Source of the DNA: Bacteroidetes bacterium GWA2_31_9
Lineage (GTDB): Bacteria; Bacteroidota; Bacteroidia; Bacteroidales; GWF2-33-38
Assembly (NCBI GenBank): GCA_001768975.1
Contig: MEND01000116.1
Location: forward strand, 1 to 33,595
Length of the DNA stretch: 33,595 nucleotides
Direction: 5' to 3'
The notes beneath the pieces are model-generated. The model worked only from the letters and a program-made list of their open reading frames with translations. It was not told where the DNA came from and did not search any database. The position numbers and the translations under genes were made by a program. This document shows, one piece after another, positions 1,344 to 33,258 of the stretch (position 1 is the stretch's first letter; each line of letters starts with the position of its first letter).

Positions 1344-1406
1344 TACCGATTGCACTTTCAATATAGTACAATTTCATTGTACTATTTTCATGTAGCATCG
1401 GTATTA
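1341..1406. repeat. Hairpin element between hydF and hydE with nested perfect stems
   Basis: Outer TAATACCGAT (1341-1350)/ATCGGTATTA (1397-1406) and inner TAGTACAAT-ttc-ATTGTACTA (1364-1384). Overlaps the hydF TAA stop. Related to 7131-7280 in inverted orientation. Confidence 0.8.
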
Positions 1407-1450
1407 TACCAAATATTAATTGGTCTTTTTTATAAATTCAAAAGTATAAG

Positions 1451-6884: not shown

Positions 6885-6913
6885 TATTTAAATTTCTATG
6901 TTTCATCAATAAT

Positions 6914-6939
6914 TAGAGTTTGTCCATAATGTCCGATTT
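6914..6939. repeat. 26-bp repeat tagagtttgtccataatgtccgattt
   Basis: Perfect inverted copy at 26649-26674. Confidence 0.85.
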
Positions 6940-6960
6940 CATCGTTATTCTCGACCTTCA

Positions 6961-6992
6961 AATCAGTCATGTACTTTAGTACACTCCTGATT
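6961..6992. repeat. 32-bp imperfect palindrome
   Basis: AATCAGtcaTGTACTTTAGTACActcCTGATT. Confidence 0.6.
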
Positions 6993-7070
6993 TTCAGTTC
7001 ATCGAAACCTCGAACTCGAACATTCTGTCTAAAACTCTCGACTTTATAAACACACTCTAATTAGATAACA

Positions 7071-7370
7071 CATAGTTTATTTAGAAAACCTCAAGAGTGA
7101 GGCTTTCACAGTTTTGAAATTAAGGAGTTTATACCATTTTAATTTACAAAATAAATCAATTAATATTTGGTATAATGCCGATGCTTTACCGATTTTATCG
7201 GTACAGGCTATGAAAATAGTACAATGAAATTGGGCTATATTGAATTCCGAAAAATAGGGACAAGTTGTGCAATCGGTATTACGAATGTAAATGCAATGTG
7301 TTGAGCTTTGTCGAAACAACTGTTTTCAAAACCAGAGTAACGAAATTATTGGAGTTTTCTAAGAGACACT
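7071..7370. repeat. Repeat family B copy 1, carrying a nested 150-bp insertion
   Basis: Ends match the 124-bp element at 26697-26820 (agaaaacctcaagagtgaggctttcacagttttgaaat ... actgttttcaaaaccagagtaacgaaattattggagttttctaagagacact). Confidence 0.8.
7131..7280. mobile_element. 150-bp hairpin-rich element nested inside repeat family B; inverted relative of the hydF-hydE element
   Basis: Reverse complement reads AATACCGATTGCAC...CAATATAGCCCAATTTCATTGTACTATTTTCAT...GCATCGGCATTATACCAAATATTAATTG, matching 1342-1430. Absent from the otherwise homologous copy at 26697-26820. Confidence 0.75.
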
Positions 7371-7494
7371 TTATTCATCTACTAATATCCATAAAAGCCA
7401 ACTTTAATCACCTGAAAAGCTAGTTTCAACAACTTTTTTAATTTATTTGGCAAATAATTTATATTATTGTCATATTTTAAAACATAAATTGAAA

Positions 7495-26590: not shown

Positions 26591-26648
26591 AAACGCCAAT
26601 GCGAATTTACTTCGGCAAATACCTTTGAAAATAAAATAATATATGAGT

Positions 26649-26674
26649 AAATCGGACATTATGGACAAACTCTA
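26649..26674. repeat. 26-bp repeat aaatcggacattatggacaaactcta
   Basis: Perfect reverse complement of 6914-6939. Confidence 0.85.
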
Positions 26675-26696
26675 TTTAGTGTCAATAAGAAAACAC

Positions 26697-26820
26697 AGTG
26701 TTTCTTCAGAAAACTTCAAGAATGAGGCTTTCGCAGTTTTGAAAATAAGGAGTTTACGAATGTAAATGACTGTTTTCAAAACCAGAGTAACGAAATTATT
26801 GGAGTTTTCTAAGAGACACT
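26697..26820. mobile_element. 124-bp MITE-like element with ~50-bp imperfect terminal inverted repeats (family B, uninterrupted copy)
   Basis: agtgtttcttcagaaaacttcaagaatgaggctttcgcagttttgaaaa vs reverse complement of the right end agtgtctcttagaaaactccaataatttcgttactctggttttgaaaac; no coding potential. Confidence 0.75.
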
Positions 26821-26925
26821 ATTTAAGTTAAACCTCTAGGAAAAAAATTTTGATAGTTCTTTTTACAATACTTTATCACCTACAGTAAATGATAGCAAGT
26901 TAAATAAAATGTTTAATTTTACCCA

Positions 26926-30462: not shown

Positions 30463-33258
30463 TTATAATTTTTTAGCTTCCAATAATTTTTCAAGTTGAT
30501 TAAAAAAATGCAAAATTAAACTTTCGGTATTTGTATATTTTGTTTGATAATGACCTAAAGACTTTAATTTTTCTTGAAATGCAAAAAGGCTATCGCTGTC
30601 TTTTTGGTTCATATCTCCTATATTTATTTGAGCATTTTTAAAATAAGTGTATATCAATGGTTTTCCTGTTTTCATAAATGTTCCGAAAGCATTTTCAAAT
30701 TCCTCAGCAGTATAAATCCCGACCTTTGTAAAAAACAACATTACAAATATATCAGATTCCTTTGCGGCGTTATTGTACTCATCTTGCAATCTGGTTTGCG
30801 ACATAGTATCAATAAAGTTTTCCCACATTACAGGTTGTAGATAAATCCCTTTATTAATCCAAATATCATTTTTCTGACGAATTGCAAGTTCAAATTCTTT
30901 TCTGTCGTTTTTTAATTCACTTGATGAAGCTATAAATATCCTTCTTGGTTTGTTGTGTTCCATTTCTCTTTTTTCTTTGGCAGGATTGTGTAAGCCTAAG
31001 TTAAACAATAGTTCTTCAACTAAAAATATTTTATCGCTTGCATTACACATTACTTTTGCTTTTTCATTTGACGAAATTTTATCAATAAGCATTTCATAGG
31101 AAAAAGTCTGCGGAATTTTATTATTAATGCACTTATCACAATTACAAGGAACAACAATTTGCGGTACTACTCCCTTATAGCCTTCGGTTATATTCTTTAA
31201 AGAATCCATTATCAGCATGTTTAAAGCACGAGAATCTGCTCCTTTTGCTTTAATACTAATTTTACGATTATAAAAATCTTCTTCAACCTGACTTTGAGCA
31301 GTATTACTCTCGAATTTGAAATTAACCGCATTATTCCATACCTCGTTATCGGTTGAAATATATCTGCTTAATTCGGCACTCAACTGATTTACCAAACCTC
31401 TTGGCATAAATTCATATTTATAATCAAGTCGCAGGTCGGCTTCTTTATCTTTCCATTTTTTTTCATCAGGCATAGAAAGCAATCTTGCAGGAATTATATA
31501 TTCATCATTATGCTTTTTATGAAAAGCTATACGGAATTCTTCAAGCATTTTTTTCAAAATATGGTGTTTATCTGTAAAACATCCATCGCTCCACAATCGA
31601 ATAAAATCTTTTGCCGTAATAATACCTTGATGTGTTTGTATTTCAGCATCGTCAATTAATTTATATACAGCATTCAAAGCCCATTCCGGTTTTAATATTA
31701 CGGTATTCCTTAATTCGTTACTATTGTAATACCATAAAACAACTCCTATTGAATGAAAAAATCTTGCACAATCTTCAATATCAACAGCTTTTTCAAATTG
31801 CTCAGGTCTTAATTCTCTGCAAATTTCGCCAAATTTTTCATAACTAATACAATCAGTATTTACTGCTAATTCAGCAAGTTTTTCTCTAACCGGAATCCAC
31901 GATTTTGGAACTCCTTTCCCATAATGAGGCAGTTTCAGAATTTGTCCAATAATAGTTTCTTTAATTGCATATAGACCTTCGTTATTGTTGAGCAAGTTAA
32001 GCTGATGATATGGAATTTGATTAATTCTAACAATGTTGAAATCGGTATTGCTCAAAAATGTTCCAATATCGTTCCACGCTACTTTATTTCCGTTATGACA
32101 TGTTTGACCCAAAATGATAGGACTTTTACCTCCAAATTGAAAGATGGTTGGTATCCAGTAATCAAAATTATGCTGAGTTATTCGTGTCGATGCAAGTAGC
32201 ACAAATACAGAATTTTCGGTTAAAAAGAACCTGTGAACTGGGTAATACACATCCTGCCCTCCAAAATCCCAAATATGTGCAATATGTTTTTTATCAGTCT
32301 CGTTTTTGAAATACCAGCCTTCGATTTTTATTCCTCGTGTTCGTTCATCTTCTTTTGGTAATACGGCTTTCTGATTAATTAAACGGAATTGTAACGATGT
32401 TTTACCTGAAGCACCTTCGCCCACCAAAGTCAATTTTGCTTCGTATATATAATCAAGCCCTTCTTTTTTAATTTTTCTAAAATGTCTTTTTATTGCCTCA
32501 TTCCCTTGCTCCACTATTTCAACTGGTGGACTTTTTAATGGATTATTATATAAAGTAATTAAACCAAAATCCGAAAAATCTTCGACCCATAAAATTTCCA
32601 TATTAAATTCGGTAATCCATTCTGGTAATTGTTCAATTGGATTAGAGTTTAAAATTAATTGTTTTAAACTTTTTAATTCTTTTAGCGGAGAAATATCGCT
32701 GATTTGATTTCCTGATAAATCTAACTTCATTAAAGTTAAATACTGTAGCGAAGAAATATCGCTGATTTGATTTCCAGATAAATATAAAGTATTTAAACTC
32801 TTAAAATCCTGCAACTGAGAAATATCATTGATTTGATTTCCTGATAAATCTAATTCATATAAACTCTTTAATTCTTTTAATGAAGGAATTTCACTGATTT
32901 GATTTTCTGATAAATCTATTTTTTTTAATTTTTTTAATTCTTTTAACTAAGAAATATCGCTGATTTGATTCTTAGATAAATATAATTCCGATAAATTATC
33001 AAAATCTATCAGTGGAAAAATATCGTTAATCTGGTTATTACTTAATTCTAACTGTTTTAAATTATTTAAGTCTTTCAAAAGAAAGCTAATATATAACAAT
33101 TTACGATTATCAATTTCGCAATCAAATAAGCCAATACTTATAACCTGATTGTTTTGGTTAAGGATATAATTACGTGATTTCCAAATAAATTGGTGTGTTT
33201 TCTCTAATTTAACATTAAGAACTTTTTCAATCTGTTTTATAATTTCGAGGTCGTTCAT
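30463..33258 (-). pseudogene. LRR-Roc-COR (Roco) GTPase with C-terminal TIR-like/DUF4062-type effector domain; reading frame interrupted by one TAG at 32947-32949
   Basis: ORFs 32947..33258 and 30463..32814 are in the same frame with continuous LRR units between them. Roc: GEGASGKTS, DFGGQDVYYPVHRFFLT. COR-like region, then VPCNCDKC motif. C-terminal PRRIFIASSSELKNDRKEFELAI ... SDIFVMLFFTKVGIYTAEEFENAF. May still express the 783-aa C-terminal part or be read through. Confidence 0.8.
32691..33060. repeat. DNA-level LRR-encoding repeat array, period mostly 66 bp (22 codons)
   Basis: aaatatcgctgatttgatttc-type units at about 32691, 32754, 32820, 32886 and 32952 (spacings 63, 66, 66, 66). Confidence 0.85.

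Follow-up and report, generated by a model that had tools for sequence, protein, structure and literature searches.

In the 33,595-nt stretch of DNA analysed here (hereafter the window), a hairpin-forming element, A, is inserted in a copy of a MITE-like element, B, and the state before the insertion is kept at 26679-26819 within the same contig. The source genome (G000) comprises 4.96 Mb in 288 contigs. In our reading, to which we assign a probability of about 0.9, A and B, together with a further element, D, represent three unrelated MITE families, all non-autonomous and hairpin-forming, that spread through this Bacteroidales genome; the long form of A lies at a TTA near the hairpin apex of a B copy of the B147 variant, and the B copy at 26679-26819 represents the pre-insertion state. 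The features of the two sites are as follows.

7064..7131, + strand: left portion of the B copy that A interrupts (B147 variant, with a degenerate outer TIR), up to and including the target TTA at 7129-7131; from the match to 26690-26825 and the alignment.
7132..7278, + strand: element A, long form, TACC...GGTA, 147 bp, inserted in B; from the alignment, the genome search and the comparison of A copies.
7279..7281, + strand: right TTA of the 3-bp target duplication; from the empty sites and the TWA duplications in other A copies.
7282..7369, + strand: right part of the interrupted B, ending ...GAGACAC; from the match to 26690-26825.
7294..7318, + strand: 25-bp segment, the length difference between the B147 and B122 variants; from the alignment and the comparison of B copies.
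26679..26819, + strand: uninterrupted B (B122 variant), the empty site; from the genome comparison and the target duplication TATTTA.

Aligned locally, 7051-7400 and 26641-26860 shared B sequence to either side of two large gaps, which correspond to the A block (150 bp) and to 7294-7318 (25 bp). The two halves of B matched the copy at 26690-26825 with E-values of 1.1e-16 (7067-7131) and 1.6e-20 (7319-7370), so that a chance similarity is excluded. The earlier note had described the interruption of a MITE-like repeat by a block of exactly 150 bp with the ends ATACC...GGTATT. The alignment bears out the interruption, but not these boundaries. The insertion point slides by 3 bp, TTA being present at either side: the empty site reads GGAGTTTACG (26750-26760, and likewise in the other uninterrupted B copies) and the filled site GGAGTT-TA-TACC...GGTA-TTACG. 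The boundary was settled by comparing A copies from four genomes, which identified TWA as the target duplication. Since other A copies carry TTA/TTA or TAA/TAA flanks, element A is best taken as TACC...GGTA plus a 3-bp TWA duplication, here 147 bp plus TTA. The same note was right that the B copy it placed at 26697-26820 is an empty site: B is uninterrupted there and is flanked by a perfect 6-bp duplication, TATTTA, at 26673-26678 and 26820-26825. The limits of B, however, had to be moved to those listed above; the interrupted copy begins at 7064 and is longer than claimed. The second difference of about 25 bp proved to be real; it is a frequent length variant of B, distinct from the insertion of A. 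The block was also correctly assigned, in inverted orientation, to the family of the repeat that separates hydF from hydE, whose reverse complement aligns with it (genome-wide E = 2e-13).

Element A is multi-copy and has TIRs, with the ends TACC/GGTA, and target duplications, as expected of a MITE. An A model gave 16 matches in G000, 47 in G014 and 49 in G050, A-like elements thus reaching about 50 copies per genome in the latter two, which belong to other families of the order. The flanks in G014 and G050 were TTA/TTA in 23 of 35 copies and TAA/TAA in 5, a concordant TWA in 28 of 35; the five TAA/TAA copies are all from G050. Outside B, A was found at C220 and C131, between hydF and hydE, in a further MITE, C, at C33, and in G001. 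Three more features in the window concern A.

1344..1446, - strand: A, short form, between hydF and hydE; from the sequence, the genome search and the A model.
7187..7208, + strand: small extra hairpin of the long A, about TTTACCGATTTTATCGGTACAGG; from the comparison of A copies.
7245..7265, + strand: second small extra segment of the long A, TTCCGAAAAATAGGGACAAGTT, shared with the A copy at C220; from the comparison of A copies.

The hairpin at 7187-7208 is absent from the 106-bp form of A, and G014 copies have a hairpin of different sequence at the same place. The long form is not local; long copies also occur in G014, in another family. The copy between hydF (TIGR03918) and hydE (TIGR03956), both identified by profile matches, is flanked by TAA at 1341-1343 and 1447-1449. 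The left TAA is the stop codon of hydF and the right one ends 1 nt before the ATG of hydE. Without A the junction would read TAAGATG, that is, the hydF stop, 1 nt and the hydE start; the 103-bp hairpin element separates two nearly overlapping genes, with neither frame harmed. The z-score of DNA folding was -5.3 for this copy, -7.0 and -9.1 for A copies of G014 and G050, and -5.0 for B. The inserted block had been described as a hairpin element, but the copy at 7132-7278 itself folds only weakly (z = -1.3).

It is conceivable that A is a single-strand (HUH) element, IS200/IS605-like or RAYT/REP-like, rather than a DDE-type MITE. It has two subterminal hairpins (z as low as -9), six of the seven genomes carry Y1 transposase genes, and all 16 G014 copies with matching flanks, as well as copies in G000 and G001, lie in the TTA orientation. 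A symmetric DDE cut alone does not explain why A in these three genomes is almost only in this orientation. IS200/IS605 elements, however, make no target duplication, and TTA on both sides of 23 copies and TAA on both sides of 5 constitute a true 3-bp duplication. Moreover, no A ends were found around the Y1 genes at 25 loci in six genomes, and no Y1 gene was detected in G050 despite about 49 A matches. We therefore regard the single-strand explanation as improbable. Three narrower forms of it were rejected. A REP/REPIN of a RAYT is contradicted by the lack, among these 25 loci, of any Y1_Tnp gene with A ends at its flanks and by G050 without a detected Y1 gene, and an IS200/IS605-derived (PATE-like) element by the TTA/TTA and TAA/TAA duplications, since such elements have a fixed 5' target and leave no duplication. 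A strict single-stranded DNA target, suggested by 12 TTA-only sites, is ruled out by the TAA/TAA copies in G050. A separate REP-like system is present in G000, in which Y1 (RAYT-like) genes (L262, L268, L273) are flanked by palindromes such as GGGCTAAAGCCCT and GCCCTACGGGC.

Element B likewise has features of a MITE. It is short (125-310 bp), with about 30 complete copies in G000 and no internal transposase ORF, and it ends in inverted repeats of the GTGTC..TAAGAAAAC type with a 6-bp duplication, mostly TAATTA/TATTTA. Its targets are A/T-rich 6-mers, usually TAWWTA. Identical 6-bp flanks were present at 70 of 164 distinct B-class inverted-end pairs, where shuffling would give 26.

The B copy at 26679-26819 might, in principle, be a deletion derivative of a B that originally contained A, and seven B copies in G000 do carry A at the same position (C116, C173, C78, C235, C14, C248, C218). 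The earlier note had named A in all other B copies as the finding that would point to such a deletion. Genome-wide, however, the site is uninterrupted in 25 G000 copies, 13 with a 122-type core, 10 with a 147-type core and 2 with another small insert. Many of these carry perfect B target duplications, and the TTA junction is precise. None of the B-like cores examined from other genomes has A at that site, and at sites unrelated to this one A is flanked by 3-bp duplications of its own. From 25 empty against 7 A-bearing copies we conclude that A is an insertion; the majority of clean empty sites refutes a deletion in practice. The 25-bp segment, absent from 13 complete B copies and present in 10 uninterrupted ones, varies independently of A, yet the A-bearing copies with a readable right half are mostly of the 147 type.

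That A grew within B as a hairpin, by template switching in the B palindrome, recalls the small internal-loop hairpins that B-class elements often gain (L041, L053, L055, L142), but it is refuted by fixed ends, target duplications and homology of the inserted sequence to A outside B, in G000 and in other families. For the extra hairpins at 7187-7208 and 7245-7265 such growth is possible. Different small hairpins of 20-45 bp, for example GACATACTGCTGTTAGCAGTATG or GGGCAAACACTCGTGGAGTGTTTGAGCC, were seen at the same internal-loop positions of B and A copies (the four loci above, L369 and L373).

With A accepted as an insertion, the order of events proposed earlier stands: the B copy came first, and A entered it later. 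The proposed order of age of the two repeat families does not, because each is also present in other taxonomic families of the order. What the nest dates is a single insertion and not the families, since A apparently hit this B site more than once and the long A is not local. The A in B at C78 is of the 106-bp form; its closest counterpart is the copy within MITE C at C33 (4 differences in 107), and 11-14 differences separate it from the long-form copies within B. On these sequence comparisons, A appears to have entered the same B TTA, close to the hairpin apex, at least twice independently. Gene conversion is an alternative to two independent insertions.

A third level of nesting was observed at four loci (C235, C14, C248, C218), where the A inside B is split by element D. 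D is 241-252 bp long, with the ends GTAASTTCTCAATA and, from the empty-to-filled comparison, an 8-bp duplication, GAAAATAG, within A; the A copy at 7132-7278 is an empty site of D. D also occurs at more than 10 other places, with 8-bp duplications where the flanks were read; empty and filled sites of D were compared outside A as well. Since the target duplications differ (3-bp TWA for A, 6 bp, usually TAWWTA, for B, and 8 bp for D), we infer that the three elements were moved by three different transposases.

The mechanism that fits best is mobilisation in trans, presumably by a separate cut-and-paste (DDE) transposase for each of A, B and D. B targets an A/T-rich 6-mer, usually TAWWTA, and duplicates 6 bp; A targets TWA (TTA or TAA), with 3 bp duplicated, and D leaves an 8-bp duplication. 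At 7064-7369, the long-form A entered the TTA near the hairpin apex of a pre-existing B147 copy. The composite of B and A, also when split by D, may then have been amplified by the transposase of B. The B+A composites in G000, however, lack clean matching duplications or reach contig ends; no match was found at 7064-7369 (TAATTA against TTTATT), nor at C173 and C78. That the composite moved as one piece is therefore conjectural, and recombination could have spread it instead.

No autonomous element with a linked transposase was found for A, B or D, A having been checked against Y1 transposases only. All TIR pairs measured in G000 were 272 bp or less. Searches for an autonomous B by TIR pattern (in G000, in GTDB and viral contigs, and in 198 genomes of the order) and by IS-end sequences (up to 393 genomes plus plasmids) returned only MITE-size pairs or broken contig ends. 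At L129, L136, L147 and L150 (in G180, G115 and G052) the same TIR is followed by a different leader of 100-130 bp that stops at the contig end. These are probably the ends of unassembled autonomous IS. The TAATTA-GTGTCTGTCCATAAAGTCGG ends in these genomes stop at contig ends.

Both B copies in the window adjoin a further element of this class.

6910..7063, - strand: B'-type MITE GAGTTTGTCCATAATGTCC...CACACTC (6916-7057) with its target duplications; from the sequence, G000 copies with the same core and the fold z-score.
26649..26672, + strand: truncated right end of a B'-type MITE, adjoining the empty B with TATTTA in common; from the sequence.

The first of these has TAATTA at 6910-6915 and 7058-7063, the second copy being common to the adjoining B. 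It is one of a family of copies in G000 that have the core ...ATCAGGAGTGTACT..., and its DNA fold z-score is -5.35. B-class MITEs often stand head to tail with one TAWWTA between two (6910-7369, 26649-26825, L003, L033, L111, L142), as if the next element had reused the duplicated target of the earlier one. Elsewhere in the window, 30463-33258 is a leucine-rich-repeat/Roc-like GTPase gene region with 66-bp repeats; the region is broken into two frames (30463-32814 and 32947-33258).

The core of B forms a two-helix structure. Among 35 distinct B-class cores, which for the most part came from separate families of the order, 93.9% of the pairs were standard, against 81.6% (sd 0.9) after shuffling, which ignores relatedness, and 37-53% when the arms were slid, a control that keeps relatedness. 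Cells changed on both sides numbered 63, against 18.8 (sd 3.1) expected on shuffling. Unpaired motifs are fixed across the cores (GAGGCTTGCGAA / AAGCATAACGAA and ATCAAGGAG / TGACTG). The core hairpin of B is thus kept by compensatory changes. Either selection for the fold or a replication-time repair in which one arm corrects the other may have caused the covariation. It is possible, though doubtful, that the core has been maintained over the long term as a folded nucleic acid, perhaps also as a small reading frame, and that the hairpin functions in the mobility cycle. If so, the B hairpin would be a single-stranded DNA/hairpin intermediate or an RNA in mobility, not a passive by-product of inverted repeats.

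In many genomes the B-class core has an open frame, MFEFEACEVLKIKEFTFVNDCFQNERNEEIGHYGQTL (for example at L287, L288, L289 and L291). Its pN/pS was 0.41, against 1.2-1.4 in the other frames, among copies chosen by protein search. A peptide from the core was rejected and kept as a weak lead: several subfamilies are frame-shifted, and the long frames that were read lie antisense to neighbouring genes. Rfam gave no match above the gathering score within the window. A regulatory role of the elements was also rejected, promoter-like counts being near chance and no terminator being found at hydF-hydE or at the nest.

B-like elements were found by DNA search in 6 other genomes of 60, and the outer B TIR, GTGTCTGTCYATAAWGTC, in 20 of the 198 genomes sampled from the order (about 10%). 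Its 23-base form, TTAGTGTCTGTCCATAAAGTCGG, occurred in 73 GTDB stretches, many from Treponema MAGs, whose isolate names suggest termite-gut samples, and the rest mainly from Bacteroidales and other Bacteroidota. Inverted TIR pairs flanked by TAWWTA in these stretches spanned 37-310 bp. The elements of 37-39 bp, in Treponema/Spirochaetaceae MAGs (L172, L213, L214, L217, L231), consist of little else than two TIRs placed back to back; several retain an intact 6-bp duplication of the target, and they are possibly the smallest mobile form.

PIF/Harbinger and the IS5 superfamily (IS1031/ISL2 group) have T-W-A or T-N-A target duplications, and to our knowledge TACC...GGTA is no recognised TIR of these groups. 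The palindromic elements of Rickettsia and Wolbachia (RPE) also show nesting and open reading frames. A is like PIF/Harbinger and the IS5 superfamily in its 3-bp duplication (PMC2213677), but no transposase is linked to it. The elements also resemble the RPE (cited in PMC10969869) as short multi-copy palindromes, but A and B have clear target duplications, and the frames read gave no sign of in-frame gene insertion. MITECca01 of Cardinium, also in Bacteroidota (about 240 bp), is similarly multi-copy with TIRs and no transposase; its parent, an IS982 element, is known (PMC9769881), whereas none was found for A, B or D. The closest parallel is BrickBuilt_18 of Porphyromonas gingivalis with the nested MITE239_11, the empty site of which is documented in strain TDC60 (PMC4596501). 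There, too, one MITE of a Bacteroidales genome is interrupted by another, and the empty site can be seen. Its families and TIRs differ (IS5-type GAGACC..., ACGT...), its empty site is in another strain rather than in the same contig, and its target duplications are variable, whereas A, B and D follow three distinct rules (PMC4596501). Because of this case, nested MITEs are not new in kind.

The A-in-B nest is clear and dateable, but essentially ordinary selfish DNA nested in selfish DNA. Within a single genome it offers clean pairs of filled and empty sites for three MITE families that appear to be unnamed and that differ in their target rules, from which the order of insertion can be read without an outgroup. 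The apparent repeated entry of A at one B site suggests that MITE hairpins attract insertions. B represents a very widespread, covarying class of MITEs in Bacteroidales, the TIR of which recurs in Treponema MAGs.
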